A stretch of 64,000 bases of DNA, from assembly GCA_023666425.1 (NCBI GenBank), contig JAMPCA010000004.1, positions 62,001 through 126,000 of the forward strand, in the 5' to 3' direction. The position numbers and the translations under genes are program-made. Under the pieces are notes generated by a model. That model did not search any database. It was given only the letters and a program-made list of their open reading frames with translations, and had not been told where the DNA came from. This DNA comes from Muribaculaceae bacterium (GTDB lineage: Bacteria; Bacillota; Clostridia; Lachnospirales; Lachnospiraceae). The first letter of the stretch is position 1. The number at the start of each line of letters is the position of its first letter. Shown in pieces: positions 1 through 14,085 of this stretch.

Positions 1-243
1 AATACAGATTTACTGTTTAGAGATTTGGATTGTGCTGTTATACAGCGCATCCATCAATATAATAAAGAAAATAAGAAGAGAGATTTTGATAGTGTCAGGG
101 GAGTTTTCCTTGAAGGGAATCCAATATATGAGAATGCGGGGATAATGGAGAAAACGCATGTACAATTGTGTATTGTTAATCCTAATTGTATAAAAGGTTA
201 TTTTAAACCATTAGAGCCAAAAGCGGATTGGGTAATAGTATAA
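1..243 (+). CDS. C-terminal end of an unrecognised protein
   Basis: The reading frame is open from the first base of the window to a TAA at 241-243, so this is the last 80 codons of a longer gene whose start lies outside. A TTG at 25 could in principle start it, but the frame continues upstream and no ribosome binding site precedes that codon. The visible protein is polar, has no membrane segment, and ends with a stretch containing THVQLCIVNPNCIKGYF that looks like a conserved strand-turn-strand core. I do not recognise the family. The region is A/T-rich compared with the genes to the right. A terminator hairpin follows 16 bases after the stop. Confidence 0.6.
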   Translation, partial: NTDLLFRDLDCAVIQRIHQYNKENKKRDFDSVRGVFLEGNPIYENAGIMEKTHVQLCIVNPNCIKGYFKPLEPKADWVIV

Positions 244-258
244 GTGAAATGTGGACAT

Positions 259-300
259 ATAAGACATATCGGAAAGAAGTATCTGATGTGTCTTATTTTT
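259..300 (+). terminator. Intrinsic terminator after the partial gene
   Basis: The 12-base arms ATAAGACATATC and GATGTGTCTTAT pair with one G-U wobble around a short loop and are followed by five T residues. The hairpin ends transcription of the partial gene at the window edge and separates it from the MFS gene. Confidence 0.75.
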
Positions 301-391
301 ACGGTATCTGGAAACATTTATTAGAAATATGGATAGTCATGGTATAGTTTGGATTGTCAAAATTGTAATGATTGAAGCTATGGTGAACAGG

Positions 392-1591
392 ATGAAAAAC
401 CAGTACAATAAAACAATCACGGCCTGCTTTGTGGGATATATTGTGCAGGCCATTGTCAATAATTTTACGCCGCTGCTGTTTCTGACTTTTCAGAAAAGCT
501 ACCATATACCGCTCTCACAGATTACGTTGCTGGTGACGTTCAATTTTGGAATACAGCTTTTGATTGATCTGCTTTCGGTCGGATTTGTGGATAAGCTCGG
601 ATACCGGGCGTCTATGATTCTGGCGCATATCCTGTCGGCAGGAGGCCTGCTCCTTCTTACGGTATTGCCGGAGCTGTCAGCCTCTCCCTTTGCCGGTATT
701 TTGATTTCAGTCATGGTGTACGCTGTCGGGGGAGGCCTGCTGGAGGTTCTTGTAAGTCCGGTCGTGGAGGCGTGTCCCTCCGAAAATAAAGAGCGGGCGA
801 TGAGTATGCTGCATTCTTTCTACTGTTGGGGACATGCGGGAATCGTGCTGCTCTCCACACTGTTTTTTCATGTGGCAGGAATACAAAACTGGAAAATACT
901 GGCGGTCATCTGGGCACTGGTTCCGGTTGGCAACGCGTTTGCATTTTCAAAGGTTCCCATGGCGTCACTCATGGAGGAGGGAGAGCGCGGCTTAAGCCTG
1001 AAGGAGCTGCTTTGCCTGAAGACTTTTTGGGTATTGTTTATTATGATGCTGTGTGCCGGGGCGAGCGAGCAGGCGGTGAGCCAGTGGGCTTCTGTATTTG
1101 CGGAGAAGGGACTGGGGATTTCCAAGACGACGGGGGATCTGGCGGGGCCGATGGCGTTCGCGGTTTTTATGGGGACAGCGAGAGCCTTCTATGGAAAATA
1201 TGGCGGCCGTATCCGTCTGGAGCGTTTTATGGTTTATAGCTGTATCCTGTGCATTCTCTCCTATCTGGGAATCTCACTTTTGCCCATTCCGCAGCTTAGT
1301 CTGGCGGCCTGCATGGTCTGCGGTCTTTCGGTCGGTATTATGTGGCCGGGCACGTTTAGCAGGGCATCGGCGGCGCTGCCGGGGGGAGGCACGGCTATGT
1401 TTGCCCTGCTGGCGTTAGGCGGCGATATTGGCTGTTCCGGGGGACCGACGGTGGTTGGGGTGGTGTCAGGCGCTCTGGGGGACAATCTGAAAGCGGGGAT
1501 TCTGGCGGGAATTGTCTTTCCGGTATTGCTGCTGGCGGGAATTTATCTTTGCAGGAAAAGCGGGCAGGGAGAGAATTGCAATCGGAATTAG
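392..1591 (+). CDS. MFS family transporter (12 TM)
   Basis: This 399-aa, very hydrophobic protein has about twelve membrane segments and an MFS motif A-like loop after the second helix (FVDKLGYR), so it is a major facilitator superfamily permease in the cytoplasmic membrane. The substrate cannot be told from sequence. ATGs also occur at 329, 368 and 380. I chose 392 because GGTGA lies five bases upstream and because the decayed copy of this gene at 9214 shows similarity starting exactly at the matching ATG. A TATAGT box near 352 may be its promoter. The gene lies directly upstream of the ATP-grasp/alpha-E cluster. The remnant at the far end of that cluster suggests the transporter belongs to the same functional unit, perhaps moving the substrate or product of those enzymes. 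Confidence 0.85.
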   Translation: MKNQYNKTITACFVGYIVQAIVNNFTPLLFLTFQKSYHIPLSQITLLVTFNFGIQLLIDLLSVGFVDKLGYRASMILAHILSAGGLLLLTVLPELSASPFAGILISVMVYAVGGGLLEVLVSPVVEACPSENKERAMSMLHSFYCWGHAGIVLLSTLFFHVAGIQNWKILAVIWALVPVGNAFAFSKVPMASLMEEGERGLSLKELLCLKTFWVLFIMMLCAGASEQAVSQWASVFAEKGLGISKTTGDLAGPMAFAVFMGTARAFYGKYGGRIRLERFMVYSCILCILSYLGISLLPIPQLSLAACMVCGLSVGIMWPGTFSRASAALPGGGTAMFALLALGGDIGCSGGPTVVGVVSGALGDNLKAGILAGIVFPVLLLAGIYLCRKSGQGENCNRN

Positions 1592-1621
1592 AGAAGCCGT
1601 CGAACATGTGCACATTTTTGG

Positions 1622-1650
1622 TTGAAATCCGCAGGAAATGATGGTATTAT
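1622..1650 (+). promoter_or_regulatory. Sigma-A promoter of the PEP-synthase-like gene
   Basis: TTGAAA at 1622-1627, a 17-base spacer and TATTAT at 1645-1650 make a good sigma-A promoter. It lies after the MFS stop and fires into the leader hairpin at 1676, not straight into a coding region. Confidence 0.65.
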
Positions 1651-1675
1651 ATATAAATAAAATACAATCAACGAC

Positions 1676-1712
1676 AAAGGAGTCGGCAATATTTGTTGCT
1701 GTCTCCTTTTTT
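1676..1712 (+). terminator. Leader hairpin with T-tract (possible attenuator)
   Basis: The arms AAAGGAGTCGGCAA (1676-1689) and TTGCTGTCTCCTTT (1696-1709) pair with one mismatch around a six-base loop and run into six T residues. It has the form of an intrinsic terminator but sits about 25 bases downstream of a promoter and 80 bases before the next start codon. It may end MFS read-through, attenuate the downstream gene, or do both. Confidence 0.65.
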
Positions 1713-1792
1713 ATTTGGAAATCATGTACTGGAACTGCATATGGCAGCCATGCAGTTATGATCTGCTTTTAAAAAGCTACGGAGGTGTGGAT

Positions 1793-4375
1793 ATGGCAGC
1801 ATTTGAAAGAATTTTATCAGGAATACCGGAAATGGACAGGGCACTGGATTCCATCAGGCTGGGTGACAATGTTGTATGGCAGGTAACAGGTCTGGAGGAG
1901 TTTACAGTATTTATGAAGCCTTATGTGAAGCAGGCGGTATCGGACGGAAGAAATCTGATTTATATTCGTTTTGCGGATCATGCACCTTTGCTGGAAGAAC
2001 AGGAGGGGCTTCGCATCATCCATGTTCCGCTTTCGCACAGATTTGAAACATTTACAGTGGAAATCCATAATATCATTGAAAAAGAGGGAAAAGATGCGTT
2101 CTATGTCTTTGACTGTCTTTCGGAATTACAGACGGCATGGGCAACGGATCTTATGATGGGGAATTTTTTTAGTCTTACATGCCCGTTTCTGTTTGAACTG
2201 GATACAGTGGCATATTTTCCGGTGATCAGGGGGATGCATTCTTTTGAAGCGGTTGCAAAAATACGGGATACAACGCAGCTGTTCTTTGATGTGTATAGCG
2301 GGCAGGGACTGTATTATGTACGTCCGATGAAGGTGTGGAGACGGTATTCTGAAACCATGTTCATGCCTCACAAATATGACGCCGGAAACGGAGCATTTCT
2401 GCCGCTTACGGATGGAGTACAGGTAAGCCATTTTTATCAGACCGTCAATAAGGGAAAGAGAATGGATGCATCACGGAACATGGACAGCTGGGACCGTTTT
2501 TTTGATCTGACAGTGCAGATGCATGGGCAGGGGATGGATGTGACGCAAAACTGTGAACGGATGTGTAACATTATGATGAGCAGGGATGAAAAGATGCGCA
2601 CAATGATCAAGAAAAATTTTGAGCCGGAGGATTATTTTGAAATTAAGGACAGAATGATTGGAACGGGACTGATTGGCGGAAAAGCCTGTGGAATGCTTCT
2701 TGCAAGAAAAATTATCGAAAATACCCGGACAGACCTTTTCCAGAGGTTAGAGCCGCACGATTCATTTTATATTGGTTCGGATGTATTCTATACATATATT
2801 GTCTATAACGGTTTTTGGGATCTTCGGATTAAGCAGAGGACGAAGGAGGGATATTTTGCTTATGCGGATGAATTTGCAGGGAAAATTATGGAGGGTAGTT
2901 TTCCGGCAGCAGAAAAAGAAAGTTTTTGCAGATTATTAGATTATTATGGTTCCAATCCAATCATTGTCCGTTCCAGCAGCATACTGGAGGATGGATTTGG
3001 AAATGCTTTTGCCGGAAAATATGAATCCGTATTCTGTGCAAATAGCGGAACGCTGGAGGAACGTCTGGCAGATTTTGAGCAGGCCTGCCGGATAGTCTAT
3101 GCAAGTACAATGTGCCAGTCTGCCCTTGATTACCGGGCGCGCAGGGGAATGGATCAAAGGGATGAACAGATGGCGCTTTTAGTACAGCGCGTGTCAGGCT
3201 CGTTTTATGGGGATTTTTTTATGCCATGTGCGGCAGGCGTGGGATATTCCTACAGCCCTTATAAATTCATTGAATCTATAGACCAGAGTGCAGGGATGCT
3301 GCGTCTTGTCATGGGGCTTGGAACCGGCGCTGTTGACAGGGTGCAGGGGTCTTATCCAAGACTTGTGGGTATGGACAGACCCTGGCTTACGGTGCATGGC
3401 TCTGCCAGCGGGAAACATCAGTATTCCCAGCGTAAGGTGGATGTGATCCATATCCCTGCAAGGCGGGTAGAACACTGGGATTTTGAGAAAATAAGGGAAC
3501 GGATTCCGGCTTATATGTTAAGGCTGTTTTTGGAACATGATTTTGATGCGGAGCGTATGTTTCGTGAACGGGGACAAAACAGAGAGATTTTCTTTGTTTC
3601 CTGTGAAGGGCTGGTCCGGAATGAAAGCCTGATGGGGATGATGAGGGATATTTTATCAGAAATCCAGAAAGAATATGATTATCCTGTGGATATAGAGTAT
3701 ACCATTAACGTTGCTGCGGATGGAGAATTTGTAGTAAATTTATTGCAGTGCCGCCCGCTGCAGATTGCAGGCAGTGCGGAAAACATATCCCTGCCGGACG
3801 TCTGCAGAAAAGAAGACATTCTGTTTGAGTGTGTGGAGTCTGCGATGGGACTCCCATGTGAAATTCCTCTGGATCTGATTGTGTTCATTGATCCGGTAAA
3901 ATATTACGAAATGCCGTATAAAGATAAATACCGGATTGCAGGTGCTGTCAATAAGATTAACTGGAAATACAGGGAAGAGAAAAAACATATGCTGCTCATG
4001 GCGCCGGGAAGAATCGGAACCTCTTCACCAGAGCTTGGCGTACCCACATCTTTTGCCGATATCAGTGAATTTGACGCAATCTGCGAGATTGCGGAAAGCA
4101 GGGCAGGGTATATGCCGGAACTGTCTTTTGGAAGTCATTTTTTTCAGGATCTGGTGGAAGCGGAGATTACATACATTGCCATTTTTGGAAATGAGAGGAC
4201 ATTGCTGTTTCAGCCGGAACTTCTGCAGGAATGCGGGAATATTTTTAGCCAGATTGCAGAAAACGAAAGGGAACTTGGGGAAGTGATTCAGGTATATGAT
4301 GTCCGCAGTGTTCATGCGCATCTTTACCATGATATCAGCAAAGGAAAAGTATTGTGCATATTTCATGGTAAATAG
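1793..4375 (+). CDS. PEP-synthase-like ATP-binding protein with degenerate KaiC-like N-terminus
   Basis: The protein has 860 aa. The ATG at 1793 has GGAGGT six bases upstream, whereas the in-frame TTG at 1715 overlaps the leader hairpin. Residues 1 to about 230 resemble a KaiC/RadA-type ATPase (opening LSGIPEMDRAL), but where a Walker A loop belongs there is VTGLEEFTVF, so this domain should not bind ATP. Residues about 285-640 match the PEP synthase/PPDK ATP-binding fold: GLIGGKACG near 293, RSSSILED near 392, GVGYSYSP near 481, GLGTGAVDR near 507. The C-terminal part has APGRIGTSSPELGVP (about 737) and GSHFFQDL (about 779), a module seen in PEP-synthase-like proteins. I see no swivelling phosphohistidine domain and no PEP-binding barrel, so it is not a true PEP synthase. 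It probably transfers phosphate to an unknown acceptor. It is the first gene of the ATP-grasp cluster. Confidence 0.75.
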   Translation: MAAFERILSGIPEMDRALDSIRLGDNVVWQVTGLEEFTVFMKPYVKQAVSDGRNLIYIRFADHAPLLEEQEGLRIIHVPLSHRFETFTVEIHNIIEKEGKDAFYVFDCLSELQTAWATDLMMGNFFSLTCPFLFELDTVAYFPVIRGMHSFEAVAKIRDTTQLFFDVYSGQGLYYVRPMKVWRRYSETMFMPHKYDAGNGAFLPLTDGVQVSHFYQTVNKGKRMDASRNMDSWDRFFDLTVQMHGQGMDVTQNCERMCNIMMSRDEKMRTMIKKNFEPEDYFEIKDRMIGTGLIGGKACGMLLARKIIENTRTDLFQRLEPHDSFYIGSDVFYTYIVYNGFWDLRIKQRTKEGYFAYADEFAGKIMEGSFPAAEKESFCRLLDYYGSNPIIVRSSSILEDGFGNAFAGKYESVFCANSGTLEERLADFEQACRIVYASTMCQSALDYRARRGMDQRDEQMALLVQRVSGSFYGDFFMPCAAGVGYSYSPYKFIESIDQSAGMLRLVMGLGTGAVDRVQGSYPRLVGMDRPWLTVHGSASGKHQYSQRKVDVIHIPARRVEHWDFEKIRERIPAYMLRLFLEHDFDAERMFRERGQNREIFFVSCEGLVRNESLMGMMRDILSEIQKEYDYPVDIEYTINVAADGEFVVNLLQCRPLQIAGSAENISLPDVCRKEDILFECVESAMGLPCEIPLDLIVFIDPVKYYEMPYKDKYRIAGAVNKINWKYREEKKHMLLMAPGRIGTSSPELGVPTSFADISEFDAICEIAESRAGYMPELSFGSHFFQDLVEAEITYIAIFGNERTLLFQPELLQECGNIFSQIAENERELGEVIQVYDVRSVHAHLYHDISKGKVLCIFHGK

Positions 4376-4400
4376 GAGCTGAGAATAATAATAGAAAAAC

Positions 4401-4429
4401 TTGACACCTCATTAAAAAAGGAATATACT
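4401..4429 (+). promoter_or_regulatory. Strong sigma-A promoter of the ATP-grasp operon
   Basis: A perfect TTGACA at 4401-4406, a 17-base spacer and TATACT at 4424-4429. It lies just after the stop of the PEP-synthase-like gene and drives the four or five overlapping genes that follow, again through a leader hairpin. Confidence 0.85.
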
Positions 4430-4447
4430 GTACTTGATTTTAAGAAC

Positions 4448-4480
4448 AAAGGCGTTCTGCGGTAAGCAGAGCGCCTTTTG
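4448..4480 (+). terminator. Leader hairpin of the ATP-grasp operon (possible attenuator)
   Basis: The 13-base arms AAAGGCGTTCTGC (4448-4460) and GCAGAGCGCCTTT (4466-4478) pair fully with one G-U wobble around the loop GGTAA, followed by a weak T-tract (TTTTGCATTTT). It starts 18 bases after the -10 box. It repeats the promoter, ACAAAGG hairpin, gene layout found before the previous gene. Confidence 0.7.
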
Positions 4481-4515
4481 CATTTTAAAGGAATTACATG
4501 GAAGGAGGAATCGTT

Positions 4516-5835
4516 ATGCGGCAGTTGGAGTTATTAAGGCATACGGACAAGATTAACGAACTGTTGGCACGCTACGGAGTAAAGTTTGGCATTTATAAAG
4601 ATAATGTTTTCAAAGAACAGCTATTTCCATTTGACTCCATACCGAGAATTATTAAACATGATGAATTTACCTTTTTGGAAAAAGGTTTAAAGCAGCGTGT
4701 TATGGCTCTGAATTTATTTTTAAAGGATATATACAGCAGGAAGCAGATCGTGAAAGACAAGATTGTTCCGGAGGATTTTATTTTTGCTTCCAGCGGTTAT
4801 ATGGCAGAGTGTGAAGGGACGGCTCCGCCCCGGGGGATTTATTCCCATATATCCGGTATTGATCTGGTAAAGGGGAAAGATGAAAACTGGTACATACTGG
4901 AAGATAACCTGCGGGTGCCGTCCGGTGCATCCTATCCCATGATTGCGAGGGATTTGTGCAGGAGAAGTTCCCCGGATACTTTTCGCGATTACAGACTGGA
5001 AGATAACCGGAATTATGCGGATTTGCTTCGAAAAACAATGGACTATGTGAATCCGGGTGGACATACTGTGATTTTGACGCCGGGCAGATATAACGCAGCA
5101 TATTTTGAACATTCTTATCTGGCGGAAAAGACGGGGGCGCATCTGGCAACCGGCTCGGAACTGATGGTGGAAAATGATATACTGTACTATATTTCATCCA
5201 GTGGAACGAAAGAACGGGTGGGGGCTGTATACCGCAGAATATCGGATGAATATCTGGATCCGATGAATTTCAATCCGGAATCCCTGATTGGTATTCCGCA
5301 TATTTATGAAGTGTTCCGCAAGGGAAATGTGGCGCTCCTGAATGCACCGGGGAATGGAGTGGCAGATGATAAGGGAATTTATTATTTTGTTCCGAAGATG
5401 ATCCGCTATTATCTGGATGAGAAACCAATTCTAAGTAATGCGCCGACATATCTGCCATTTTATGAGGAGGATATGAACTATGTTTTGACCCACTTTGATG
5501 ATCTGGTTCTGAAAGATGTGGCAGAGGCGGGGGGATATGGCGTTGTCTTTGGAAATTCCATGACAAAACAGCAAAAGGAGAATTTTATCGCTCTGCTAAA
5601 GAAAGAACCGAGACGCTTCATTGCACAGGAAGTCATTGATTTTCAGGATCTGGACATCGTGGACAGTGGGGAGATTGTACCAAGGAAAGCAGACCTTCGG
5701 GCTTTTGTGTTAATGGCGGAGGAGCCGATGGTGTGGAAGAGCGGTCTGACACGGTTTTCCAGAAATACAGATTCGTTCATCGTGAATTCATCACAGGGAG
5801 GAGGTTTTAAGGACACATGGGTATTATATCAGTAG
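4516..5835 (+). CDS. Circularly permuted ATP-grasp type 2 protein
   Basis: This 439-aa protein belongs to the circularly permuted ATP-grasp family (COG2308). Hallmarks in order are the ISGIDLVKGKDENWYILEDN block near residue 115, NLRVPSGASYP, the strongly conserved AVYRRISDEYLDP, LLNAPGNGVADDKGIY, and the C-terminal NSSQGGGFKDTWVL. ATP-grasp enzymes use ATP to join a carboxylate to an amine or thiol, so an amide or peptide ligase activity is expected, but the substrate is unknown. The start at 4516 has AAGGAGG seven bases upstream; the ATG at 4498 is less well placed. The 3' end overlaps the alpha-E gene by 19 bases, which implies tight translational coupling. It is a little shorter than typical family members of about 470 aa. 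Confidence 0.88.
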   Translation: MRQLELLRHTDKINELLARYGVKFGIYKDNVFKEQLFPFDSIPRIIKHDEFTFLEKGLKQRVMALNLFLKDIYSRKQIVKDKIVPEDFIFASSGYMAECEGTAPPRGIYSHISGIDLVKGKDENWYILEDNLRVPSGASYPMIARDLCRRSSPDTFRDYRLEDNRNYADLLRKTMDYVNPGGHTVILTPGRYNAAYFEHSYLAEKTGAHLATGSELMVENDILYYISSSGTKERVGAVYRRISDEYLDPMNFNPESLIGIPHIYEVFRKGNVALLNAPGNGVADDKGIYYFVPKMIRYYLDEKPILSNAPTYLPFYEEDMNYVLTHFDDLVLKDVAEAGGYGVVFGNSMTKQQKENFIALLKKEPRRFIAQEVIDFQDLDIVDSGEIVPRKADLRAFVLMAEEPMVWKSGLTRFSRNTDSFIVNSSQGGGFKDTWVLYQ

Positions 5836-6479
5836 AACAGGCAGACCATTTATTTTGGCTGGGAAGATATACGGAACGTGTATATACCACACTCCGCCTC
5901 TATTTCCTGAGATTTGACAGCATGATTGATGAAGCGGCTGATAGTTACCAGGCATTTTGTGCATCTGTTGACATTCCGAATATTTATCTGTCAAAGGAAG
6001 ATTTTCTGAAACGCTATCCCTTTGATGCGCAGAATCCGGATTCCATTATCAGTAACCTGAACCGGGCATATGATAATGCGATTGTACTCAGGGAGAGCAT
6101 TGGATCTGAAGCACTGTCCTATATCCAGCTTGCGGTTTATGATATGAATAAGGCGGCAGCCAGTCAGGCACCCCTGATAGAGCTGCAGTACCTTCTTGAC
6201 CATATTTTATCATTCTGGGGGGTTGCAGATGACCAGATTGATTCGGAACAGGTGCGGAATATGATTAAGGCAGGAAAACGGATTGAGCGCATTGATATGT
6301 ATGCGCGGCTGAAAAAATCAAAAGAGGAACTGGTACGGGAAGTCTGCCGCATGATTCCGAGAGTGGAGCGGAGCGGGCTGACGTATGATAGGGCCAGCCT
6401 CGAAGAAGTGAAAAGACTTGTGGAAAATCCTGATTTGGATTACTATAAAATTGTATCAAATGTTGAGGCAGTTATATAG
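5817..6479 (+). CDS. Alpha-E domain protein (DUF403), short form
   Basis: The 220-aa, mostly helical protein starts with the family signature HLFWLGRYTERV. Alpha-E proteins (COG2307) are almost always encoded beside permuted ATP-grasp enzymes and transglutaminases. Their biochemical role is unknown; they may be a scaffold or co-ligase. The usual length is about 300 residues, so this is a compact version, and it is not truncated by a visible frameshift because the frame ends cleanly. The start lies inside the last seven codons of the ATP-grasp gene (19-base overlap), and the transglutaminase gene follows 22 bases after the stop. Confidence 0.85.
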   Translation: MGIISVEQADHLFWLGRYTERVYTTLRLYFLRFDSMIDEAADSYQAFCASVDIPNIYLSKEDFLKRYPFDAQNPDSIISNLNRAYDNAIVLRESIGSEALSYIQLAVYDMNKAAASQAPLIELQYLLDHILSFWGVADDQIDSEQVRNMIKAGKRIERIDMYARLKKSKEELVREVCRMIPRVERSGLTYDRASLEEVKRLVENPDLDYYKIVSNVEAVI

Positions 6480-6501
6480 TTTACAGGTTAGGAGTGAATT
6501 T

Positions 6502-7287
6502 ATGGCGGTGCTGCATTATGAATATAAGATGGAGATAAAATATGAGGAATATGTCGGCAGATGTTATTTTACAATCAAGTGTATCCCAAGGGAAGATGCG
6601 AGACAACACTTATTGAAAAGGAAAATTTCACTGTTACCGGAGACCGGGTATTCATTCGGGGAGGATTCCTTTGGAAACAGCCAGATTTATGGATGTGAGA
6701 CAGAGCCTCATAAACAGTTTGTTTTCCAGACGTCTGGTGAGGTGGAAATTCTTCAGACAGATTATGAAGAGGAACTTAGGGATGAGCTGACTGGGATTTT
6801 TCGTGCGCCTCATGGAAAGTGCATACCAGGTTCCGGGATTTCAGAATATTATCAATCTTATGACTTTACAAAATGCGGCGGCCATTACGACATCTGCGAG
6901 GCATGGATGCATCGGCTGCATCAGGATTTTTCCTATGTGCCGGGAGCCACGCAGGTGCAGACCACGGCAGAGGAGGCGTGGGAGCTTGGCAGGGGCGTCT
7001 GTCAGGACTATGCGCATATTTATGTCACGCTGCTTCGTATGGCGGGAATCCCTGCCCGTTATGTGTGCGGGCTGATTATCGGTGAGGGGGCGAGCCATGC
7101 GTGGGCAGAGGCACTTTGTGATAACCGCTGGGTGGCATTTGACCCGACGAATGACTGTCTGGTGCTGGATCATTATATAAAGCTTGGCCATGGGAGAGAT
7201 GCAGCAGACTGTGCGATTAACCGTGGGCTTATGTGGAACAGTGGAGCACAGTCACAAAAGATAGATGTTTTGGTGAAAAAGGTTTGA
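6502..7287 (+). CDS. Transglutaminase-like cysteine protease, ATP-grasp cluster type
   Basis: The 261-aa protein has an N-terminal strand-rich region (about residues 1-110, the bacterial transglutaminase-like N-terminal type) followed by the papain-like transglutaminase core. The catalytic triad is visible as Cys167 in RGVCQDYAH, His199 in SHAWAE and Asp214 in AFDPTND. The family usually cleaves or transfers amide bonds, often peptides built by the neighbouring ligase. No signal peptide is seen, so it should act in the cytoplasm. The ATG at 6502 is preceded by TAGGAG with seven bases spacing; the frame extends upstream into the alpha-E gene but without a ribosome binding site. It is the fourth gene of the cluster. 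Confidence 0.87.
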   Translation: MAVLHYEYKMEIKYEEYVGRCYFTIKCIPREDARQHLLKRKISLLPETGYSFGEDSFGNSQIYGCETEPHKQFVFQTSGEVEILQTDYEEELRDELTGIFRAPHGKCIPGSGISEYYQSYDFTKCGGHYDICEAWMHRLHQDFSYVPGATQVQTTAEEAWELGRGVCQDYAHIYVTLLRMAGIPARYVCGLIIGEGASHAWAEALCDNRWVAFDPTNDCLVLDHYIKLGHGRDAADCAINRGLMWNSGAQSQKIDVLVKKV

Positions 7288-7331
7288 AACTGTTTGTATC
7301 GCTGATACAAAAGGCAGTGGAATGGAGTAAT

Positions 7332-8291
7332 ATGATAAAAACAATAGCATCCGTGGGGCTTCCGGTGGATGAAAAGCTTGAGATTAAAAAGAACCGTATT
7401 TTGCCTGAAGAAGTCATGTCATCCATAGATAGCATGAAACGAATCAGCATTGTTACGGGTATTCATGGAGATGAGCTGGAGGGGCAGTATGTCTGTTTTG
7501 AACTACAGCGCCGTATCGGGCAGAACAGGGAATGTCTTGCGGGGATTGTGGACATTTACCCGGCAATGAATCCATTAGGCATTGATTCCATTACCAGGGG
7601 AATCCCGGCATTTGATTTAGATATGAACCGCTTGTTTCCCGGAGATATTAACGGAAGCATGATGGAATATGTGACAGCCCGGATTATGGAGGACGTGGCA
7701 GGATCTGACTGTGTATTGGATATCCATGCCAGCAATATTTATCTGACGGAGATACCGCAGATTCGAATCAATGAACTGCATCAGGATACTCTGGTGCCGG
7801 TGGCAGAGGCCGCAAATGTTGATTTTATCTGGGTGCATGGAGCCAGTACTGTGTTGGAGGCGACCTTTGCGCATAGTTTAAATACTGTGGGGACACCGGT
7901 GCTGGTCGTGGAAATGGGTGTGGGGATGCGGATTACGCAGAGCTACGGAGACCAGATGGTGGATGGGATTTTTAATTTGATGAAAAAGATGGGGATTTGG
8001 ACAGGGGAAGTGAATCCGGTCAGAAAACCGATGATTTCCCGAAATCCGGAGGATGTCAGCTATTTGAATGCCAGTGTTGGCGGTGTGTTTATTCCGGCTG
8101 TGCAGCATGGCGCAAAAATGAAACAGGGGGAACGGATTGGGCGTATTGTAGATCCGTTATATGGAGAGGTGCTGGATGAAGTGTGTGCACCGGAAGACGG
8201 TATGCTGTTTACTATAAGGAATTACCCCATTGTTGTCGAGGGTTCCCTGATGGGGCGGCTGCTGAAAAAGGAGGTGTGCGGATATGAATAA
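7332..8291 (+). CDS. AstE/AspA-family zinc deacylase, catalytic paralog
   Basis: The 319-aa protein belongs to the succinylglutamate desuccinylase/aspartoacylase family, zinc-dependent amidohydrolases related to M14 carboxypeptidases that remove an acyl group from an amino acid. All three zinc ligands are present: His45 and Glu48 in GIHGDELEG, and His132 in VLDIHASN. The arginine-bearing MNRLFPG motif is also present. The ATG at 7332 has GGAG four bases upstream; the frame is open back to 7233 inside the transglutaminase gene, which would make a 352-aa form without a good ribosome binding site. The last eight bases overlap the start of its paralog. It could trim or release the product of the ATP-grasp ligase. 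Confidence 0.83.
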   Translation: MIKTIASVGLPVDEKLEIKKNRILPEEVMSSIDSMKRISIVTGIHGDELEGQYVCFELQRRIGQNRECLAGIVDIYPAMNPLGIDSITRGIPAFDLDMNRLFPGDINGSMMEYVTARIMEDVAGSDCVLDIHASNIYLTEIPQIRINELHQDTLVPVAEAANVDFIWVHGASTVLEATFAHSLNTVGTPVLVVEMGVGMRITQSYGDQMVDGIFNLMKKMGIWTGEVNPVRKPMISRNPEDVSYLNASVGGVFIPAVQHGAKMKQGERIGRIVDPLYGEVLDEVCAPEDGMLFTIRNYPIVVEGSLMGRLLKKEVCGYE

Positions 8292-9213
8292 AAGAAGCAT
8301 TTATGAACTAAAGGGATTATATCGTGACACGTTCCGCGTGACTGGCTATGAATTTGGGGCAGGAGATCCGTCTGTCTGTATTGTAGGAAGTACCAGAGGA
8401 AATGAAGTGCAGCAGATGTATTGCTGTTCCCGGCTGGTGCAGAAAATGAGGCAGCTGGAAGAAGAGGGAAGAATCACGGAAGGTCATAAGATTTTAATTA
8501 TTCCCTCGGTCAATCCCTATTCCATGAATATACAGAAAAGGTTCTGGTCAACAGATAACACGGATATCAACCGGATGTTTCCGGGTTATGATCTGGGGGA
8601 AACAACCCAGAGAATTGCGGCTGGTATTTTTAAGGAGATTTCAGAGTATTCGTTTGGAATACAGTTTGCTTCTTTTTATATGCCGGGAGATTTTGTCCCG
8701 CATGTGCGACTGATGGATGAGGGATACAGCAGCCCTGAAACAGCGAAGCAGTTTGGCCTGCCCTATGTGATTATCCGCAAGGTAAGGCCTTATGATACGG
8801 CAACCTTAAACTATAACTGGCAGGTATGGGATACACAGGCATTTTCTTTATATACGACGACTACAGCGCGAATTGACAGAAACAGCGCTGGACAGGCAGT
8901 TTTGGCAGTTATGAATTTTTTGTCCCGGCAGGGAATGATAAAATACAGCGCACCAGAAAGTCTGGATTCTAAAGTGGTATATGATGATGACATGATTTGC
9001 ATAAAAACCGCAAAATCCGGGATTTTTGAGCCGATGGTAAGGGCTGGCGAGGAAGTCAGCGTCGGACAGCCGCTTGCCAATATTCTGAATCCTTATGAGG
9101 GGAATATTATAGAAACAATCTATGCTCCTTTTGCAAGGGTTGCTTTTTTTGTACATAACGAACCGTTGACCTATGCGAATACAGCCGTGTTTAAGCTGAT
9201 TGAGAGGCCGTGA
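8284..9213 (+). CDS. AstE/AspA-family paralog lacking zinc ligands (likely pseudoenzyme)
   Basis: This 309-aa protein aligns along its length with the preceding gene, including NRMFPG and the C-terminal lipoyl-like strand region, but the zinc site is altered. GIHGDE has become STRGNE, so the first histidine is Arg38 while Glu41 stays. The third ligand His of IHAS is Phe128 in IQFAS. Without two of three zinc ligands it is unlikely to hydrolyse amides and may regulate or stabilise its neighbour, with which it is translationally coupled (the overlap is ATGAATAA). The frame is intact, so the change is not recent decay. A decayed MFS start follows immediately after its TGA. Confidence 0.8.
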   Translation: MNKRSIYELKGLYRDTFRVTGYEFGAGDPSVCIVGSTRGNEVQQMYCCSRLVQKMRQLEEEGRITEGHKILIIPSVNPYSMNIQKRFWSTDNTDINRMFPGYDLGETTQRIAAGIFKEISEYSFGIQFASFYMPGDFVPHVRLMDEGYSSPETAKQFGLPYVIIRKVRPYDTATLNYNWQVWDTQAFSLYTTTTARIDRNSAGQAVLAVMNFLSRQGMIKYSAPESLDSKVVYDDDMICIKTAKSGIFEPMVRAGEEVSVGQPLANILNPYEGNIIETIYAPFARVAFFVHNEPLTYANTAVFKLIERP

Positions 9214-9342
9214 ATGAAAAAAGAAAAGCCAGTACAATAATCCATCACGGCCGGATTTGCGGGATATATTGTGCGGGCCGTTGCCAATAATTTTGCGCCA
9301 TTTGCGCCATTGGCGTACAGAAATATTTGCCATCTCACAGAA
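9214..9342 (+). pseudogene. Remnant of an MFS transporter 5' end
   Basis: This stretch matches the start of the MFS gene (392-522) at most positions, for example GGATATATTGTGC and CAATAATTTT, and then the CTCACAGA that lies 120 bases into that gene. A one-base deletion before ATCACGG and small later deletions destroy the frame, and an in-frame TAA appears after eight codons. The ATG follows the preceding TGA directly (TGAATG), as in an operon. It is the relic of a second copy of the transporter gene at the end of the cluster. Confidence 0.8.
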
Positions 9343-9355
9343 AAAGGGTTATAAT
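9327..9355 (+). promoter_or_regulatory. Promoter of the diguanylate cyclase gene
   Basis: TTGCCA (9327-9332), 17 bases and a perfect TATAAT (9350-9355). The -35 lies within the decayed MFS remnant, so the promoter appears to have been recruited from former coding sequence. Confidence 0.65.
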
Positions 9356-9398
9356 AGAACCGATAGAATGCTTTTTTATGATGCGAGGGGCAGTACAG

Positions 9399-10499
9399 AT
9401 GAAGAAACGGTTTCAGATCGGTAAAAAAATTGTAGACGGAGATCTTCCTTTCCATGAGGATATGAAATATCTTCTGCTGGTGGCGGCAGCCTCGGTGGCG
9501 CATTTTTGTTTTACTCTGATTTTTTTCTATTGTCATGCATATATTCTGGCTTCCTATAATATATTTGCTACATTATTTTATATATACCACAGTGCGGTTT
9601 CCGTGAGAAAGAGACGTTACGTCCTGATGTACCAGTCCTCCCTGCTTGAGATACTGTTCCATTCCGGTCTTGCGACCCTGCTTTTGGGGACGGACTTTGG
9701 TTTTATGATCTATACGATCTCCCTGGTTCCGCTGGCGTTTTATTTGCCCTACACCATACCGAGATACCGGAAAAATATCGGGATTCCGGTGATTACTTCC
9801 GTTTTAATCGTTGCGTACTATTTTGTGATCACCTTTGTGGCGACAATCGTTCCACATTTCTATAGTGAAAACTTTGACGATGCGTTCAGGGGACTGTTTT
9901 ACTATGTGAACAGCTTTATCGCCTTTGCCCTGCTGGTATTTTTCTCCCTCATTTTTATGATTGAGATCTATCAAATGCAGGCGAGGCTGGAGCAGGAGAA
10001 CCATTCCCTCGGGCGGCTTGCCAATTACGACCCGCTCACCCATCTGCTCAACCGCAGGAGCATGAACAGCTATCTGCAGAGGGCATGGGAGGATTGCCGC
10101 GAACAGTCGGACGTCTTTACACTGATTATGTCGGATATTGACGATTTCAAGCATGTGAATGATACCTATGGACATGCCTGCGGCGATGAGGTGCTCAAGG
10201 CAGTCAGCCGGGTAGTAAAAAAGGACGTCCGTTCCCATGACAGCATATGCCGCTGGGGAGGCGAGGAGATTCTGATTTTAGTACATGCTGACAGAGAGGC
10301 GGCAATTTCGATTGCCAGGCACATATGTACAGATGTGGCGGAGAGGGCTGTGCGTTTCAATGATCAGGACGTGAGAGTGACCCTGACCCTCGGCATCGCC
10401 TCTTATCACGGACAGCCGGATATCTCCACAATTATTGCGGAGGCGGATGCGAATCTGTACAAGGGAAAAACGAATGGAAAGAATCAGGTGGTCTTTTAG
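9399..10499 (+). CDS. Membrane-bound diguanylate cyclase (GGDEF)
   Basis: The 366-aa protein has about six hydrophobic segments over residues 20-200 and a C-terminal GGDEF domain. The active-site loop reads RWGGEE (about 285-290), a catalytically competent GGEEF variant, and RSHD five residues upstream fits the RxxD inhibitory site, so product feedback is likely. It should make cyclic di-GMP from two GTP at the membrane. The N-terminal sensor is of no type I can name. The ATG at 9399 is preceded by GAGGGG with eight bases spacing; upstream ATGs lack this. It is a single-gene unit with its own promoter. Confidence 0.87.
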   Translation: MKKRFQIGKKIVDGDLPFHEDMKYLLLVAAASVAHFCFTLIFFYCHAYILASYNIFATLFYIYHSAVSVRKRRYVLMYQSSLLEILFHSGLATLLLGTDFGFMIYTISLVPLAFYLPYTIPRYRKNIGIPVITSVLIVAYYFVITFVATIVPHFYSENFDDAFRGLFYYVNSFIAFALLVFFSLIFMIEIYQMQARLEQENHSLGRLANYDPLTHLLNRRSMNSYLQRAWEDCREQSDVFTLIMSDIDDFKHVNDTYGHACGDEVLKAVSRVVKKDVRSHDSICRWGGEEILILVHADREAAISIARHICTDVAERAVRFNDQDVRVTLTLGIASYHGQPDISTIIAEADANLYKGKTNGKNQVVF

Positions 10500-10543
10500 G
10501 AGGCCATCTGTTTTTATATCACAGGAAGACTTTGGCCTGACAG

Positions 10544-10625
10544 AAAACGGGGATTTTGCGAATATTTGCGCAAACAAAAACGGGGATTTTGCATATATAT
10601 TGCTTGATAAAAACGGGGATTTTGC
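10544..10625 (+). repeat. Three 16-bp direct repeats at exact 33-bp spacing
   Basis: AAAACGGGGATTTTGC occurs identically at 10544-10559, 10577-10592 and 10610-10625, a step of 33 bases or about three helical turns. The third copy runs into a TATAAT box at 10628-10633 upstream of the ATPase gene. In one frame the repeats read as NGDFA units, but the exact DNA identity and promoter position favour a protein-binding array over a coding role. Confidence 0.85.
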
Positions 10626-10655
10626 ATATAATAGGTGTGAAAGCGAGGTCTGCGT

Positions 10656-11990
10656 ATGTTTAAGAGGAAGATTTATGACAAGCTCGTAGAGTGGAAACGT
10701 GAGGAAAAGGGCGGCACGGCGCTGCTGCTTGAGGGAGCACGGCGCATTGGCAAGTCAACGGTGGTGGAGGAATTTGCGAGGAGAGAGTATCAGAGCTACA
10801 TTCTGATTGATTTTTCCGGCTGCTCCCCGGAGATAAAGAATCTGTTCCTGGATATGTCGGATATGAACTATTTCTTTTTACAGTTACAGCTATACTGTCA
10901 TGTGGATCTGGTGGAGCGGGATTCCCTGATTATTTTCGACGAGGTGCAGCTATATCCTCCGGCGCGGCAGGCCATCAAGCATCTGGTGAAGGACGGCAGA
11001 TATGACTATATTGAGACGGGCTCGCTGATTTCCATTAAGCGGAATGTAGAGGGAATACTGATTCCCAGCGAGGAACGGCGGCTTTACATGCACCCCATGG
11101 ATTACGAAGAATTTTTGTGGGCGATGGGAGATGGGGCGACTCCGGGGCTGCTGCGGCAGCTCTGTGAACATCCAAGGCCTCTTGGGGACGAGGGAAACCG
11201 GAAAATGATGAGAACCTTTCGGCTGTATATGCTGATTGGGGGAATGCCGCAGGCGGTTGACCGCTATCTGCAGTCGAATAATCTAAAGCATGTAGATTTG
11301 GTAAAACGGGATATCCTGAATCTCTATGAGGAGGATTTTCACAAGCTGGATTCCACCGGGAAAATTTCCCTGCTTTTTGATTCCATTCCGGCAGAACTCA
11401 ACAAGAACGCGGCCCGCTATCAGGTGTCGAGCGTGCTCAGGGGCGTGCGCGCGGAGGGCTCACTTGAGCTCATCGCCGCACTAAAGGATTCCAGAACCGT
11501 CAATGTCGCCTACCACGCCAACGACCCGGGGGTGGGAATGGCGAGCAACCGGGATTTGGGAATGTTCAAGCTGTTTCTCGCGGACACCGGACTGTTTACG
11601 ACGCTGGTGTTTAAGGATAAGGATTTTACCGAAAACCTGATATACGAAAAGCTGTTAAGTGACAAACTTTCCGCGAATCTGGGCTATCTGTACGAAAATG
11701 TAGTCGCGCAGATGCTCACGGCAAGGGGAGACGAACTGTATTACCATACCATGAAGAGCGATACCTCAAACCATAATTATGAGGTAGACTTTCTGGTGTC
11801 CCGCAAAAATAAGGTCTGTCCGATTGAGGTAAAATCCTCCGGTTACCGGACTCACAGTTCACTGGACAGGTTTGCCGAAAAATATTCGGCGCGGATACTG
11901 AACCAGTATGTGGTGTACACGAGGGACTGGAAAAAGGACGGGGCAGTCACGCTGCTTCCGGCATATATGCTGCCGTTTGTAGAGCTGTAG
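10656..11990 (+). CDS. AAA family ATPase with DUF4143 C-terminus
   Basis: The 444-aa protein has a P-loop GARRIGKST near residue 27 and a Walker B LIIFDEVQ near 95, typical of the AAA_14 family. A C-terminal DUF4143 region ends in a PD-(D/E)XK-like segment (YEVDFLVSRKN, then PIEVKSSG). Such proteins are common, often multicopy, in gut anaerobes. Their role is unknown, though a nuclease-like ATPase acting on DNA or in defence has been suggested for relatives. The ATG at 10656 has GAGG eight bases upstream. Transcription probably starts from the TATAAT touching the third upstream repeat, so the repeats may mediate control. The gene stands alone. Confidence 0.8.
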   Translation: MFKRKIYDKLVEWKREEKGGTALLLEGARRIGKSTVVEEFARREYQSYILIDFSGCSPEIKNLFLDMSDMNYFFLQLQLYCHVDLVERDSLIIFDEVQLYPPARQAIKHLVKDGRYDYIETGSLISIKRNVEGILIPSEERRLYMHPMDYEEFLWAMGDGATPGLLRQLCEHPRPLGDEGNRKMMRTFRLYMLIGGMPQAVDRYLQSNNLKHVDLVKRDILNLYEEDFHKLDSTGKISLLFDSIPAELNKNAARYQVSSVLRGVRAEGSLELIAALKDSRTVNVAYHANDPGVGMASNRDLGMFKLFLADTGLFTTLVFKDKDFTENLIYEKLLSDKLSANLGYLYENVVAQMLTARGDELYYHTMKSDTSNHNYEVDFLVSRKNKVCPIEVKSSGYRTHSSLDRFAEKYSARILNQYVVYTRDWKKDGAVTLLPAYMLPFVEL

Positions 11991-12046
11991 AGAAGGGGCA
12001 CAGATACCAAAATCAAACAAAATGGGGAAATTTGCGGTCTGCTTGT

Positions 12047-12076
12047 GCAGAATTCTTGTAAATTTGTAAAAAGTGG
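12047..12076. repeat. Bipartite intergenic repeat, copy 1
   Basis: GCAGAATTCTTGTAAAT (12047-12063), two bases, then GTAAAAAGTGG (12066-12076). Both parts recur in the same order at 36583-36636, with 26 bases between them. The core AGAATTCT is palindromic. The rest of this 298-base gap holds an A/T-rich stretch and the promoter-leader of the next gene. Confidence 0.55.
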
Positions 12077-12153
12077 GACTTTGGTACTGTATAAAATGTA
12101 TATTTTTTTGCTTGAATTTTCGTAAAGTTTATGCACACTTATTCGGCAGTACA

Positions 12154-12165
12154 TGCTATTATAAT
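12154..12165 (+). promoter_or_regulatory. Extended -10 promoter of the pseudouridine synthase
   Basis: TGCTATTATAAT contains both an extended -10 (TG, one base, TATTAT) and TATAAT. No good -35 is seen at 16-18 bases, which fits an extended -10 promoter. Confidence 0.45.
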
Positions 12166-12196
12166 GACTGTAAAAACCCCCCAATACATTATATAG

Positions 12197-12261
12197 TTTT
12201 TACTATACCCCATAGTAAAAATACCTTCTCCTAAAAAAGGCAGCTTGCAGCTGTCTTTTTT
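12197..12261 (+). promoter_or_regulatory. Two-hairpin leader of the pseudouridine synthase
   Basis: Hairpin A has the perfect arms TTTTTACTAT (12197-12206) and ATAGTAAAAA (12212-12221) with loop ACCCC. Hairpin B (12233-12261) pairs AAAAAAGGCAGC with GCTGTCTTTTTT and has the form of an intrinsic terminator. Both lie between the promoter and the start codon at 12289, so the leader could regulate by attenuation. Confidence 0.6.
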
Positions 12262-12288
12262 ACATATAGAAACGTATACGGATGGAAA

Positions 12289-12975
12289 ATGCATATGAAC
12301 TGGAATAAAGTATATGAGGACAGCGCGCTGGTCGTCTGCTATAAACCGGCGGGGATCCCCACACAGACGAAGCATATAGGCAGGCCGGATATGGTGAGCC
12401 TTCTAAAGAATGACCGTGCATTGCACGGCGAGCCTTCTTATGTCGGACTGGTGCATCGGCTTGACCAGCCGGTGGAGGGGCTGCTTGTGTTTGGAAAGAC
12501 GAAGGAGGCGGCCGCCCGGCTGTCAGGGCAGGTGCAGGCAGGGAGCTTTGGCAAATACTATTACGCGCTCGGTCAGGGAAGCAAACCGGAAGCTTCCGGC
12601 AGGGAAGAAATATTCCTGATAGATTATATTTTGGCGGATAAAAAGAAAAATACAGCCTCTGTCGTGCCGGAGGGGACGCGCGGGGCGAAAAAGGCAGTGC
12701 TTCAGTACCGGGTCGTTGGAAACGAGGGAGACAGGATATGCTTTGACATTACATTGCACAGCGGCCGCCACCACCAGATTCGTCTGCAGATGGCACATCA
12801 TGGCTGGCCGCTTTTGGGAGACAGGAAATATGGTGTGGGGACAGAGCAGGGGCAGCAGCTTGCGCTCTGCGCTTACCGCATCACCTTTACGCACCCCGAG
12901 ACGGGAAATACCATGGATTTTTCCATTCAGCCCCAAAATCCGGCGTTCGCGTCGTTTTGCACGCAGCCTTTATAA
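12289..12975 (+). CDS. RluA-family RNA pseudouridine synthase
   Basis: The 228-aa protein contains the RluA-family catalytic motif HRLDQPVEG with Asp59 as the nucleophile. It also has the family opening (VVCYKPAGIPTQ) and the later HQIRLQMAHHGWPLLGDRKY. It isomerises uridine to pseudouridine in rRNA or tRNA; the target site cannot be assigned. There is no S4 domain in front, so it is one of the short RluA-type enzymes. The start is ATG at 12289 (or 12295); the ribosome binding site is weak. The upstream leader contains a terminator-like hairpin, which suggests regulated expression. It converges with the Rpn-type gene. Confidence 0.88.
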   Translation: MHMNWNKVYEDSALVVCYKPAGIPTQTKHIGRPDMVSLLKNDRALHGEPSYVGLVHRLDQPVEGLLVFGKTKEAAARLSGQVQAGSFGKYYYALGQGSKPEASGREEIFLIDYILADKKKNTASVVPEGTRGAKKAVLQYRVVGNEGDRICFDITLHSGRHHQIRLQMAHHGWPLLGDRKYGVGTEQGQQLALCAYRITFTHPETGNTMDFSIQPQNPAFASFCTQPL

Positions 12976-12978
12976 TAA

Positions 12979-13014
12979 GAAAAGGCGCTTCATTTTTATA
13001 TGCGGCACCTTTTC
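12979..13014. terminator. Imperfect terminator between convergent genes
   Basis: GAAAAGG pairs with CCTTTTC across a T-rich loop, with an imperfect inner stem. Position between two convergent genes supports a terminator role, but the stem is weak. Confidence 0.35.
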
Positions 13015-13045
13015 TCTGCTATTTTATATTAGTTGCCTTCTCCAA

Positions 13046-13909
13046 TTACACTAATTGCATAACCTCTGCTTCAATTTCTTTCAATTCATCAAATGACAGT
13101 GAAGAGACACAATCGGCAATATCTTCAAGCGTCATTTTTCCCTTTCTGATTAATTGTTCCGCCATTGCCTTTTCTGTATCATGCTTTTCGCTCTTAATAA
13201 AAGATTTCATTATCTGCTCATCATCAAATAAACTCATCATAATCGTTACCACCTCCATTTCCCTGCTGCTTAAATACTGTTTTAATATATTTCTGTCTTT
13301 ACAAATATGGATTGTTGCTGTAACTGCCTGCCTTGTCATTCCATACTTACTAACCTGTTCGTTAAATACTTTGCAAAAAACAATGTATTCATTGATAATA
13401 TTATCTTTATCACTCTCATATATGACTCTGGCCTTTATTTCGATGTCAATATCAGCACCGTCAAAAAAATCCTGCGATAAAGATATTGTATCAGGTTTTC
13501 TGCCTTTATCGCCTGTGAATATCACATATAATTCAGGTTTTGGCATTTTTACTTTCTTACTTTTATATAAGCTCTGACTTGTTTTCTCAAAATATTCATG
13601 GTAACTCTGTGCCAAATACAGCAATATTCTGATTAGAATATTTACCGTCCATGAAGACTGTGCTTCCAGGAGCAGAAGTAATTTGTTATTTCCTGCCATA
13701 ATACCCAGATCATTATACAGATTATCTGTCAATACATTATCTATCGTAACAATATCCAGCGTGTCCGCTGTTGCGTCTGTATCCTCCGGGTGTAGGGTTT
13801 TATACAGTGCAAGCAGATTATTTTTGTCTTGGAAAAGGTCTAAAAATACACTGTTCTTTGCGGTACGCTTTGCCCTGACTTCTTGTGTCTGCTTTGTATT
13901 GTTCTGCAC
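13046..13909 (-). CDS. Rpn/PD-(D/E)XK nuclease-family protein
   Basis: This 287-aa protein fits the Rpn/YhgA-like group of PD-(D/E)XK nuclease-transposase relatives: a YNDLGIMAGNNKLLLLLEAQ block supplies the acidic residue and the E-x-Q core, and the C-terminus is helical and charged. Relatives nick DNA and promote recombination; here this is inference from family. The start is GTG at 13909 with AGGTGA five bases upstream (AAAGTG context). The gene is clearly more A/T-rich than its neighbours and stands alone, which points to horizontal transfer. Members are usually multicopy in Lachnospiraceae. Confidence 0.7.
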   Translation of the reverse strand: MQNNTKQTQEVRAKRTAKNSVFLDLFQDKNNLLALYKTLHPEDTDATADTLDIVTIDNVLTDNLYNDLGIMAGNNKLLLLLEAQSSWTVNILIRILLYLAQSYHEYFEKTSQSLYKSKKVKMPKPELYVIFTGDKGRKPDTISLSQDFFDGADIDIEIKARVIYESDKDNIINEYIVFCKVFNEQVSKYGMTRQAVTATIHICKDRNILKQYLSSREMEVVTIMMSLFDDEQIMKSFIKSEKHDTEKAMAEQLIRKGKMTLEDIADCVSSLSFDELKEIEAEVMQLV

Positions 13910-14085
13910 TTTATCACCTCGTTTCCTTAAAAGTAGTGATAGAAAATAATAGACATTACGTCTGTCTTTAATTATATATAAAAATATTTGCGTTTACAAT
14001 AAAATTCCGTTAAATTTCTTTCTTTATCATTTCGTAGTATAAATGCTGTGTTGTAGCTCTCTTGTGTTTGTTATAATCAAGTCTT

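Follow-up and report, generated by a model that had tools for sequence, protein, structure and literature searches.

A conserved five-gene set of ATP-grasp ligase and paired AstE/AspA-type proteins in Lachnospirales, with a candidate nitrogen-responsive leader element

The gene set described here was analysed in a 64,000-nucleotide window (the whole stretch of DNA under study, C23:62001-126000) of a draft genome of 2.74 Mb, in 28 contigs and 98% complete. Between window positions 4516 and 9213, the + strand encodes a circularly permuted ATP-grasp ligase, a short Alpha-E protein, a transglutaminase-like cysteine enzyme (TG) and two adjacent AstE/AspA-type proteins, AST1 and AST2. The set is preceded by a leader in which a hexaloop hairpin overlaps an intrinsic terminator. 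We consider it somewhat probable that this core is a nitrogen-regulated operon that makes and breaks an amide or isopeptide. The gene set, the states of the active sites, the leader element and the genes that this element precedes are read from sequence.

The nearest relatives of the ATP-grasp gene belong to Lachnospiraceae, namely locus L003 (96% identity) and Eubacterium plexicaudatum (91%). Two partly overlapping sets of loci, in which the same genome may occur twice, were compared: 80 loci gathered through ATP-grasp similarity, and the regions around PF14403 matches in 392 genomes of the order. The PF14403 profile gave some match in 48 of the 392 genomes and a strong one (E < 1e-100) in 36, hereafter the ligase genomes.

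The five-gene core

Pfam confirmed seven genes on the + strand in the order given by the initial annotation: MFS_1, PPDK_N, CP_ATPgrasp_1/2, Alpha-E, Transglut_core with Bact_transglu_N, and two AstE_AspA_cat proteins. Conservation is confined to the last five, in which the permuted ATP-grasp, Alpha-E and TG genes lie adjacent; the MFS gene and the PEP-synthase-like (PEPS) gene were rejected as core genes, their linkage and occurrence not being conserved across loci. Nor does the PEPS-like gene belong to a single overlapping run, as had been proposed, since a promoter-like site and a terminator separate its stop codon from the ATP-grasp gene.

The ATP-grasp ligase (GRASP; 4516–5835, + strand) matches PF14403 (E 1.9e-134) and PDB entry 3n6x (E 3e-111), the latter labelled a putative glutathionylspermidine synthase. 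The Alpha-E protein (5817–6479, +; 220 residues) matches PF04168 (E 3.9e-25) over profile positions 6–170 of 294, and its predicted model is all helical (predicted local distance difference test score (pLDDT) of 92). The 112 Alpha-E proteins measured span 218–252 residues and do not qualify as full length; sequence searches for an Alpha-E structure returned weak, unrelated chains only. The TG (6487–7287, +; PF01841 and PF08379) has a C172/H204/D219 triad that is kept in 106/106 proteins. Alpha-E and transglutaminase occur in one open reading frame (ORF) in two distant lineages (L131:9673-11211 and L156:6561-8462). A purified Yersinia relative of the ATP-grasp protein is reported to release phosphate from ATP, and the Anbu encoded in the same operon to show no peptidase activity (PMC6376114).

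Completeness was counted for the 97 loci with at least 3.8 kb downstream of the ATP-grasp gene. All five genes are present in 96 of them (53 of 54 clusters at 92% identity), that is, in 66/66 similarity-collected loci and 30/31 loci from the PF14403 search. The sole exception, L094 (genome G305), is a ligase cassette with zero AstE/AspA match. Spacing is 20 bp or less in 112 of 115 ATP-grasp/Alpha-E pairs and in 94 of 105 AST1/AST2 pairs, and the genes flanking the core differ widely between loci. An apparent TG–AST1 fusion in L039 was rejected, having been produced by a stretch of N.

The core extends beyond the order. Elsewhere in the class, the same five genes were found with strong matches at L129, L130, L132 and L133, and L131 has an Alpha-E–TG fusion on a contig that ends inside AST1. 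Outside the class, genome G938 holds the same set, family f149 (L159 and L160) combines a full-length Alpha-E with an AST pair, and no AST gene was seen at L155–L157. The ligase tree unites the clostridial-type sequences in a single group, set on a long branch; three changes of the AST label are required on this tree, which does not demonstrate a single origin. Searches of PHROGs with four proteins and of PADLOC with seven proteins gave no match. A literature search yielded no description of the AST pair that was recognised among the listed matches; it did not cover Iyer et al. 2009, a key work on these operons that may already list AstE-type partners.

Across the 392 genomes, the AST2 profile matches in 48. 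Ligase and AST2 occur together in 34, the ligase alone in two (G257, on a 4.2-kb contig, and G305), AST2 alone in 14 and neither in 342, counts that ignore kinship. The initial annotation had predicted this co-occurrence, and AST2 is indeed present in 34 of the 36 ligase genomes; it had overlooked the AST pairs without a linked ligase, found in 14 of the 48 AST2 genomes (L141–L154), as well as the attenuator leader and regulon described below. In these 14 genomes the pair is surrounded by other genes, including a large FGAR-amidotransferase-like gene at L145 and L147 (by Pfam) and at three more loci (by length only). The two halves are therefore not obligatorily coupled, and AST1 and AST2 could be an independent catabolic module merely linked to the ligase cassette, with the halves doing different jobs. 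The cassette of G305, devoid of any AstE/AspA match, fits this alternative as well. We nevertheless find it rather doubtful in view of the co-occurrence and of the set being unbroken in all but one of the loci counted; moreover, two of the 14 cases resemble losses of the ligase half, L150 retaining a TG remnant and G289 a ligase fragment elsewhere in the genome, with its leader element.

A hydrolase paired with a pseudo-hydrolase

Judged by its residues, the AST pair is an active hydrolase together with a fixed pseudo-hydrolase. AST1 (7332–8291, +; PF24827, E 1.4e-22) is an AstE/AspA/DoeB-type zinc hydrolase that most likely starts at 7332, the GTG at 7233 being a mechanical ORF start. AST2 (8284–9213, +; PF24827, E 9.3e-11) overlaps AST1 by 8 bases and has the AstE/AspA fold. 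The two were compared in a joint alignment from which rows below 140 bits, shorter than 270 residues or longer than 520 residues were left out, together with L001 and L039; near-identical genomes were kept. The zinc-ligand, catalytic and motif roles of the aligned positions are presumed from aspartoacylase.

In AST1 the zinc and catalytic residues H78, E81, H165 and E227 (numbered from the GTG at 7233) are all present in 126/126 proteins. In AST2 the first zinc His is replaced by Arg and the catalytic Glu by Tyr, each in 122/122 proteins; the second zinc His is also lost in 122/122, with Thr, Ala, Ser, Pro or Val in its place (80, 35, 5, 1 and 1, respectively). The zinc Glu is kept in 121/122, leaving an incomplete zinc and catalytic site. 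The pair was first described as twin deacylases, a description that fits AST1 only, AST2 having lost two of its zinc ligands along with the catalytic Glu. The supposed binding motif of AST2 is retained, with Arg (119) or Lys (3) at the Arg122 position and Asn132 and Arg133 in 122/122. AST2 also has a long list of invariant residues of its own and is therefore maintained rather than decaying.

The AST tree, which has distant outgroups and does not include outgroup locus L161, contains one AST1/AST2 split (support 99/96 for AST1 and 91/77 for AST2). The second protein of family f149 groups with AST2 (91/77) and keeps both zinc His residues, but not the catalytic Glu, in 2/2 sequences, which suggests that the catalytic Glu was lost before the metal site.

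The AlphaFold model of AST2 has a mean pLDDT of 84, with residues 86–102 below 50. Its best Foldseek match is PDB entry 3cdx (E 1.9e-18, template-modelling (TM) score of 0.72), which places it in the AstE/AspA fold; EutE/DoeB and the cyanophycin dipeptide hydrolase CphZ are also matched. In the sequence search with AST1, CphZ appears at E 0.0015, over the C-terminal part only. At L129:6292-7827, AST2 has by eye an apparent C-terminal methyltransferase-like domain.

A hexaloop hairpin over a terminator

The leader of the core begins with a promoter-like site (TTGACA-17-TATACT, 11/12 matches; 4401–4429, +). An antiterminator-like hairpin, AGAAC(AAAGGC)GTTCT, follows at 4443–4458 (+), its hexaloop carrying A1 and G4, and overlaps an intrinsic terminator in the 5′ leader (4448–4486, +; 13-bp stem and T tail). 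The 5′ arm of the terminator can pair alternatively with the bases just upstream, giving the hexaloop hairpin. On folding of the growing transcript, the small hairpin forms first (−4.3 kcal/mol), followed by the terminator (−22.5 kcal/mol).

The strict element occurs once in the window, both strands considered, and in none of 20 shuffles. Among 112 core leaders, a terminator is present in 64, a promoter-like site with at least 10/12 matches in 61, and a promoter followed by a terminator in 54. The strict element was found in 40/112 leaders (28/60 clusters), and in none of 20 leader shuffles. A scan of the 2.54 Mb of collected loci gave 71 elements, of which core leaders account for 48 and other places for 23. 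In some Butyrivibrio loci the element is missing from the core leader and the motif is instead 4–5 kb upstream; in G366 (L090/L186) it precedes the ABC ATPase gene of a transporter block.

For terminators of at least 10 bp picked without regard to the hexaloop, a hexaloop hairpin overlaps 63 of 77 core-leader terminators versus 34 of 132 others (nominal p 1.5e-15, kinship ignored); the corresponding core counts for loops of 4, 5, 7 and 8 are 16, 6, 7 and 29. Terminator pairs covary, with 73 two-sided cells against 22.4 after shuffling, and the antiterminator hairpin pairs in 184/184 cells; neither count is independent evidence, because the sequences had been picked for both pairings. Tandem elements or terminators were seen by eye in L028, L036, L037, L042, L047, L063 and L064, and in the further leaders L074, L075, L080, L081 and L097; the strict scan finds six tandem leaders. 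Rfam at gathering scores had no match in window positions 1–14000, and no description of the leader element was recognised among the listed matches of a literature search.

The element resembles the targets of ANTAR proteins and may work like one, as far as its sequence goes. Published ANTAR targets consist of two hexaloop hairpins with A1/G4, the second overlapping a terminator, mostly ahead of nitrogen genes (PMC3369931). The hexaloop elements here have A1 in 49/58 and G4 in 52/58 cases and lie over the terminator, a match that is weaker than it looks, the terminator itself favouring A as the first and G as the fourth base of the loop. A canonical dual-hairpin ANTAR element was rejected, P1 being absent. 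Where a promoter was found (41/51, without a control), the element begins a median of 14 nucleotides after the −10 box.

Genes downstream of the element

The next gene was inspected for 18 of the 23 elements outside core leaders. These elements precede citrate synthase (L075, L080 and L081), ABC ATPase genes (L040, L060 and L095), a RelA/SpoT-domain gene (L061 and L066), PEPS (L036) and a Peptidase_C26 fragment (L041), and that of L085 goes with NAD synthetase and a periplasmic binding protein; no nameable gene lies downstream at L005, L042, L043, L049 and L056.

A covariance model (R2) was built from 46 elements, 36 of them from core leaders; its alignment holds no glutamine-synthetase or ammonium-transporter site. 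It was searched in 10 genomes, with 150 of 425–1820 first-look candidates scored per genome, and returned at least 35 rows at E ≤ 0.1. Sixteen non-core sites, picked because a nameable-looking ORF came next, were checked by Pfam. Glutamine synthetase follows at seven of these (type I at 4, type III at 3) and an ammonium transporter at 2 (L190, L192, L193, L209, L196, L198, L203, L205 and L208, around position 1501). One site each precedes a glutamine amidotransferase, an ABC ATPase, citrate synthase, a sodium:alanine symporter, Lrp/AsnC, PucR and an ABC substrate-binding protein. Four more rows are core leaders (L184, L188, L213 and L185, the last cut by a contig end); the others are unassigned or second tandem copies, including two weak rows of the window's own genome at C26. 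The hexaloop/terminator element is thus a candidate mark of a nitrogen regulon in Lachnospirales.

Terminators are common and promoter-like sites at window positions 1–11000 are at chance number, as would be expected if the leader hairpin were the ordinary terminator of the upstream gene and no attenuator. This we think very unlikely: the terminator follows a promoter-like site in nearly half of the core leaders although the upstream genes vary, hexaloop overlap is concentrated in core leaders, and the same element stands ahead of glnA-, glnN- and amtB-type genes.

Proposed function

We infer transcription as one unit, the regulator, the direction of the response, the substrate and the role of AST2. 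Under nitrogen-replete conditions, transcription would start after the promoter-like site and, within a few nucleotides, end at the terminator. Under nitrogen shortage, a putative ANTAR-like RNA-binding antiterminator would lock the hexaloop hairpin, which takes up the 5′ arm of the terminator, and so allow read-through; the same would apply to those genes for glutamine synthetase, ammonium transporter, citrate synthase and ABC transporters that carry the element in relatives. That the response is on at low nitrogen is suggested by the glutamine synthetase and ammonium-transporter partners.

From the protein families, ligation followed by cleavage by TG and AST1 is predicted. The ATP-grasp enzyme would join a carboxylate to an amine, and the Alpha-E/transglutaminase unit and AST1 would act on such bonds by cutting or transferring them; the product released by AST1 would be an amino acid whose carboxylate is free, as with CphZ or DoeB. 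AST2 most likely binds the same ligand, as a partner or sensor of AST1, because it has the same fold and a carboxylate-binding motif without the metal site or catalytic Glu. In effect, the operon would store, recycle or scavenge an amide or isopeptide rich in nitrogen.

Reports on related systems fit a nitrogen-regulated operon. The permuted ATP-grasp, Alpha-E and TG genes of Burkholderia cenocepacia are under NtrC/sigma54 (PMC5491218), Anbu of Pseudomonas putida is raised under nitrogen limitation (PMC5666114), and in marine metagenomes these domains correlate with urea metabolism.

Several observations weigh against the proposal. Besides the ligase-free AST pairs, the strict element is confined to the minority of core leaders given above and is missing from, for example, those of Butyrivibrio L058, L061 and L066, and the promoter counts in leaders have no control. 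An upstream P1 hexaloop hairpin was found in 1 of 51 leaders, with 1.9 expected from shuffles. The non-core matches of the covariance model are individually weak (E 1e-4 to 0.06). The window's own genome has one strong match, the core leader (E 3e-7), and the next (0.009) is a two-way terminator, so that the regulon is visible here only through relatives; in this search 150 of 1052 first-look candidates were scored, and weaker sites could be missed. Finally, the Arg/Asn/Arg motif of AST2 falls in the low-confidence stretch at residues 86–102, and the model therefore does not place the supposed binding groove.

A more specific version is offered tentatively and as improbable on present evidence: the start-site-proximal single-hairpin switch would define an undescribed nitrogen regulon of Lachnospirales, with the operon as its cyanophycin-like arm, in which the ATP-grasp enzyme builds a nitrogen-rich isopeptide, AST1 cleaves it in the manner of CphZ and the metal-less AST2 acts as a built-in sensor for the amino acid set free.

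Years after they became known, Alpha-E/permuted ATP-grasp/transglutaminase operons still have, to our knowledge, no proven function. Two unlike controls, proteobacterial NtrC (PMC5491218) and the RNA attenuator proposed here, both point to nitrogen supply, and the question of function therefore becomes testable. The AST pair provides a second concrete handle on it, and the fixed pseudo-enzyme exemplifies an active site lost step by step while its partner was kept. Should it be confirmed, the leader element would provide a means to read nitrogen regulation in gut commensals.

Absence of Anbu

As the initial annotation had noted, no Anbu accompanies the core. In the window's own genome the best PF00227 match (E 0.02) is below the cut-off, and no Anbu was found in 41 ligase-bearing relatives, some of them drafts 76–90% complete and one (G380) with a ligase fragment only. 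Some PF00227 match (E ≤ 0.1) occurs in 15 of these, and one, in G392, is over the cut-off; considered as Anbu, it was identified as HslV adjoining HslU. A distinct clostridial variant with an AstE-type pair and without Anbu is thus supported. Whether the absence of Anbu is itself a hallmark of this variant is doubtful, because sets from other phyla list none either: no Anbu is listed alongside the genes of Deinococcus L127, Sphingomonas L128 and Caballeronia L126, in an incomplete gene table and with no search aimed at Anbu. Paenibacillus L124 is without annotation.

If AST1 and AST2 replaced Anbu as tag remover, the operon could serve protein or peptide tagging, the ATP-grasp enzyme and the transglutaminase attaching and trimming an amide tag. 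Such a role is the literature proposal for the Anbu operon (PMC6376114 and PMC5666114). The Alpha-E/TG fusions, which suggest a complex, also favour it, but the nearest structures of the AstE/AspA-type proteins include DoeB and CphZ. Enzymes of this type have small N-acyl amino acids as substrates. Among ORFs of at least 90 residues, a limit that would miss a shorter tag gene, none recurs by the core as a small tag gene, and the genes sharing the leader are mostly metabolic or transport genes; we think tagging unlikely.

Neighbouring genes

The MFS transporter gene (392–1591, +; PF07690) is not part of the core and is probably a separate unit, with a weak terminator-like site downstream at 1684–1701. 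Linkage of a close MFS homologue is limited to the window and the near relative L003, and MFS export as a component of the system is not supported. Of 20 genomes searched, 15 have a single-copy ArAE_1 gene, and in 7 of these, from four genera, it is no more than 7 kb from the core; a strong Peptidase_C26 gene (E < 1e-50) is within about 5 kb in three of the six genomes having one; we take both as hints of partners, not as parts.

The ArAE_1 linkage could be read as support for an exported amide metabolite, made by the five genes and exported by the MFS protein or, in relatives, by an ArAE/FUSC protein. This seems improbable: the MFS linkage is not conserved; 5 of the 20 genomes lack the ArAE gene, and in 8 of the 15 that have it, the window's own among them, it lies far from the core; and two hydrolytic folds beside one ligase suit turnover better than export.

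The PEPS-like gene (1793–4375, +) is accessory. Its assignment to a PEP-synthase-like protein holds for the PPDK_N (ATP-grasp) domain, PF01326 being its only match; the other PEP-synthase domains (phosphohistidine and PEP-binding) were not found. Of the 392 genomes, 61 have PEPS; 12 of these are among the 36 ligase genomes, where it is mostly non-adjacent to the core; 10 of these 12 are full length and two are fragments, an occurrence that speaks against a core gene. By eye, the N-terminal third (1793–2750) looks KaiC/RecA-like, with no Pfam match there. A GGDEF protein gene (9327–10499) lies directly 3′ of AST2, a position in which one was otherwise seen only in L003.

Comparison with known systems

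The core shares with the Anbu operon (permuted ATP-grasp, Alpha-E, transglutaminase and Anbu) three families in the same order and nitrogen control, as reported for relatives. It differs in that no Anbu was found and AST1/AST2 are added, in an Alpha-E of 218–252 rather than the 307–360 residues of non-clostridial sets, and in clostridial ligases set apart by a deep branch.

The leader element has in common with ANTAR target RNAs the A1/G4 hexaloop, the conserved closing C–G pair, the overlap with a terminator and the nitrogen genes downstream; unlike them, it has the second hairpin only, which begins just a few nucleotides downstream of the predicted transcription start. Compared with the AstE/AspA/DoeB/CphZ hydrolases, AST1 keeps the family active site and AST2 the fold and the Arg/Asn/Arg motif, whereas the adjacent pair of paralogues, one complete and one metal-less, sets the core apart. 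Glutathionylspermidine synthetase/amidase (GspS) likewise combines a permuted ATP-grasp ligase with a cysteine amidase, and the ligase described here matches 3n6x by sequence; in the core, however, the activities would reside in separate genes, the cysteine enzyme is of another family and a zinc hydrolase is added.

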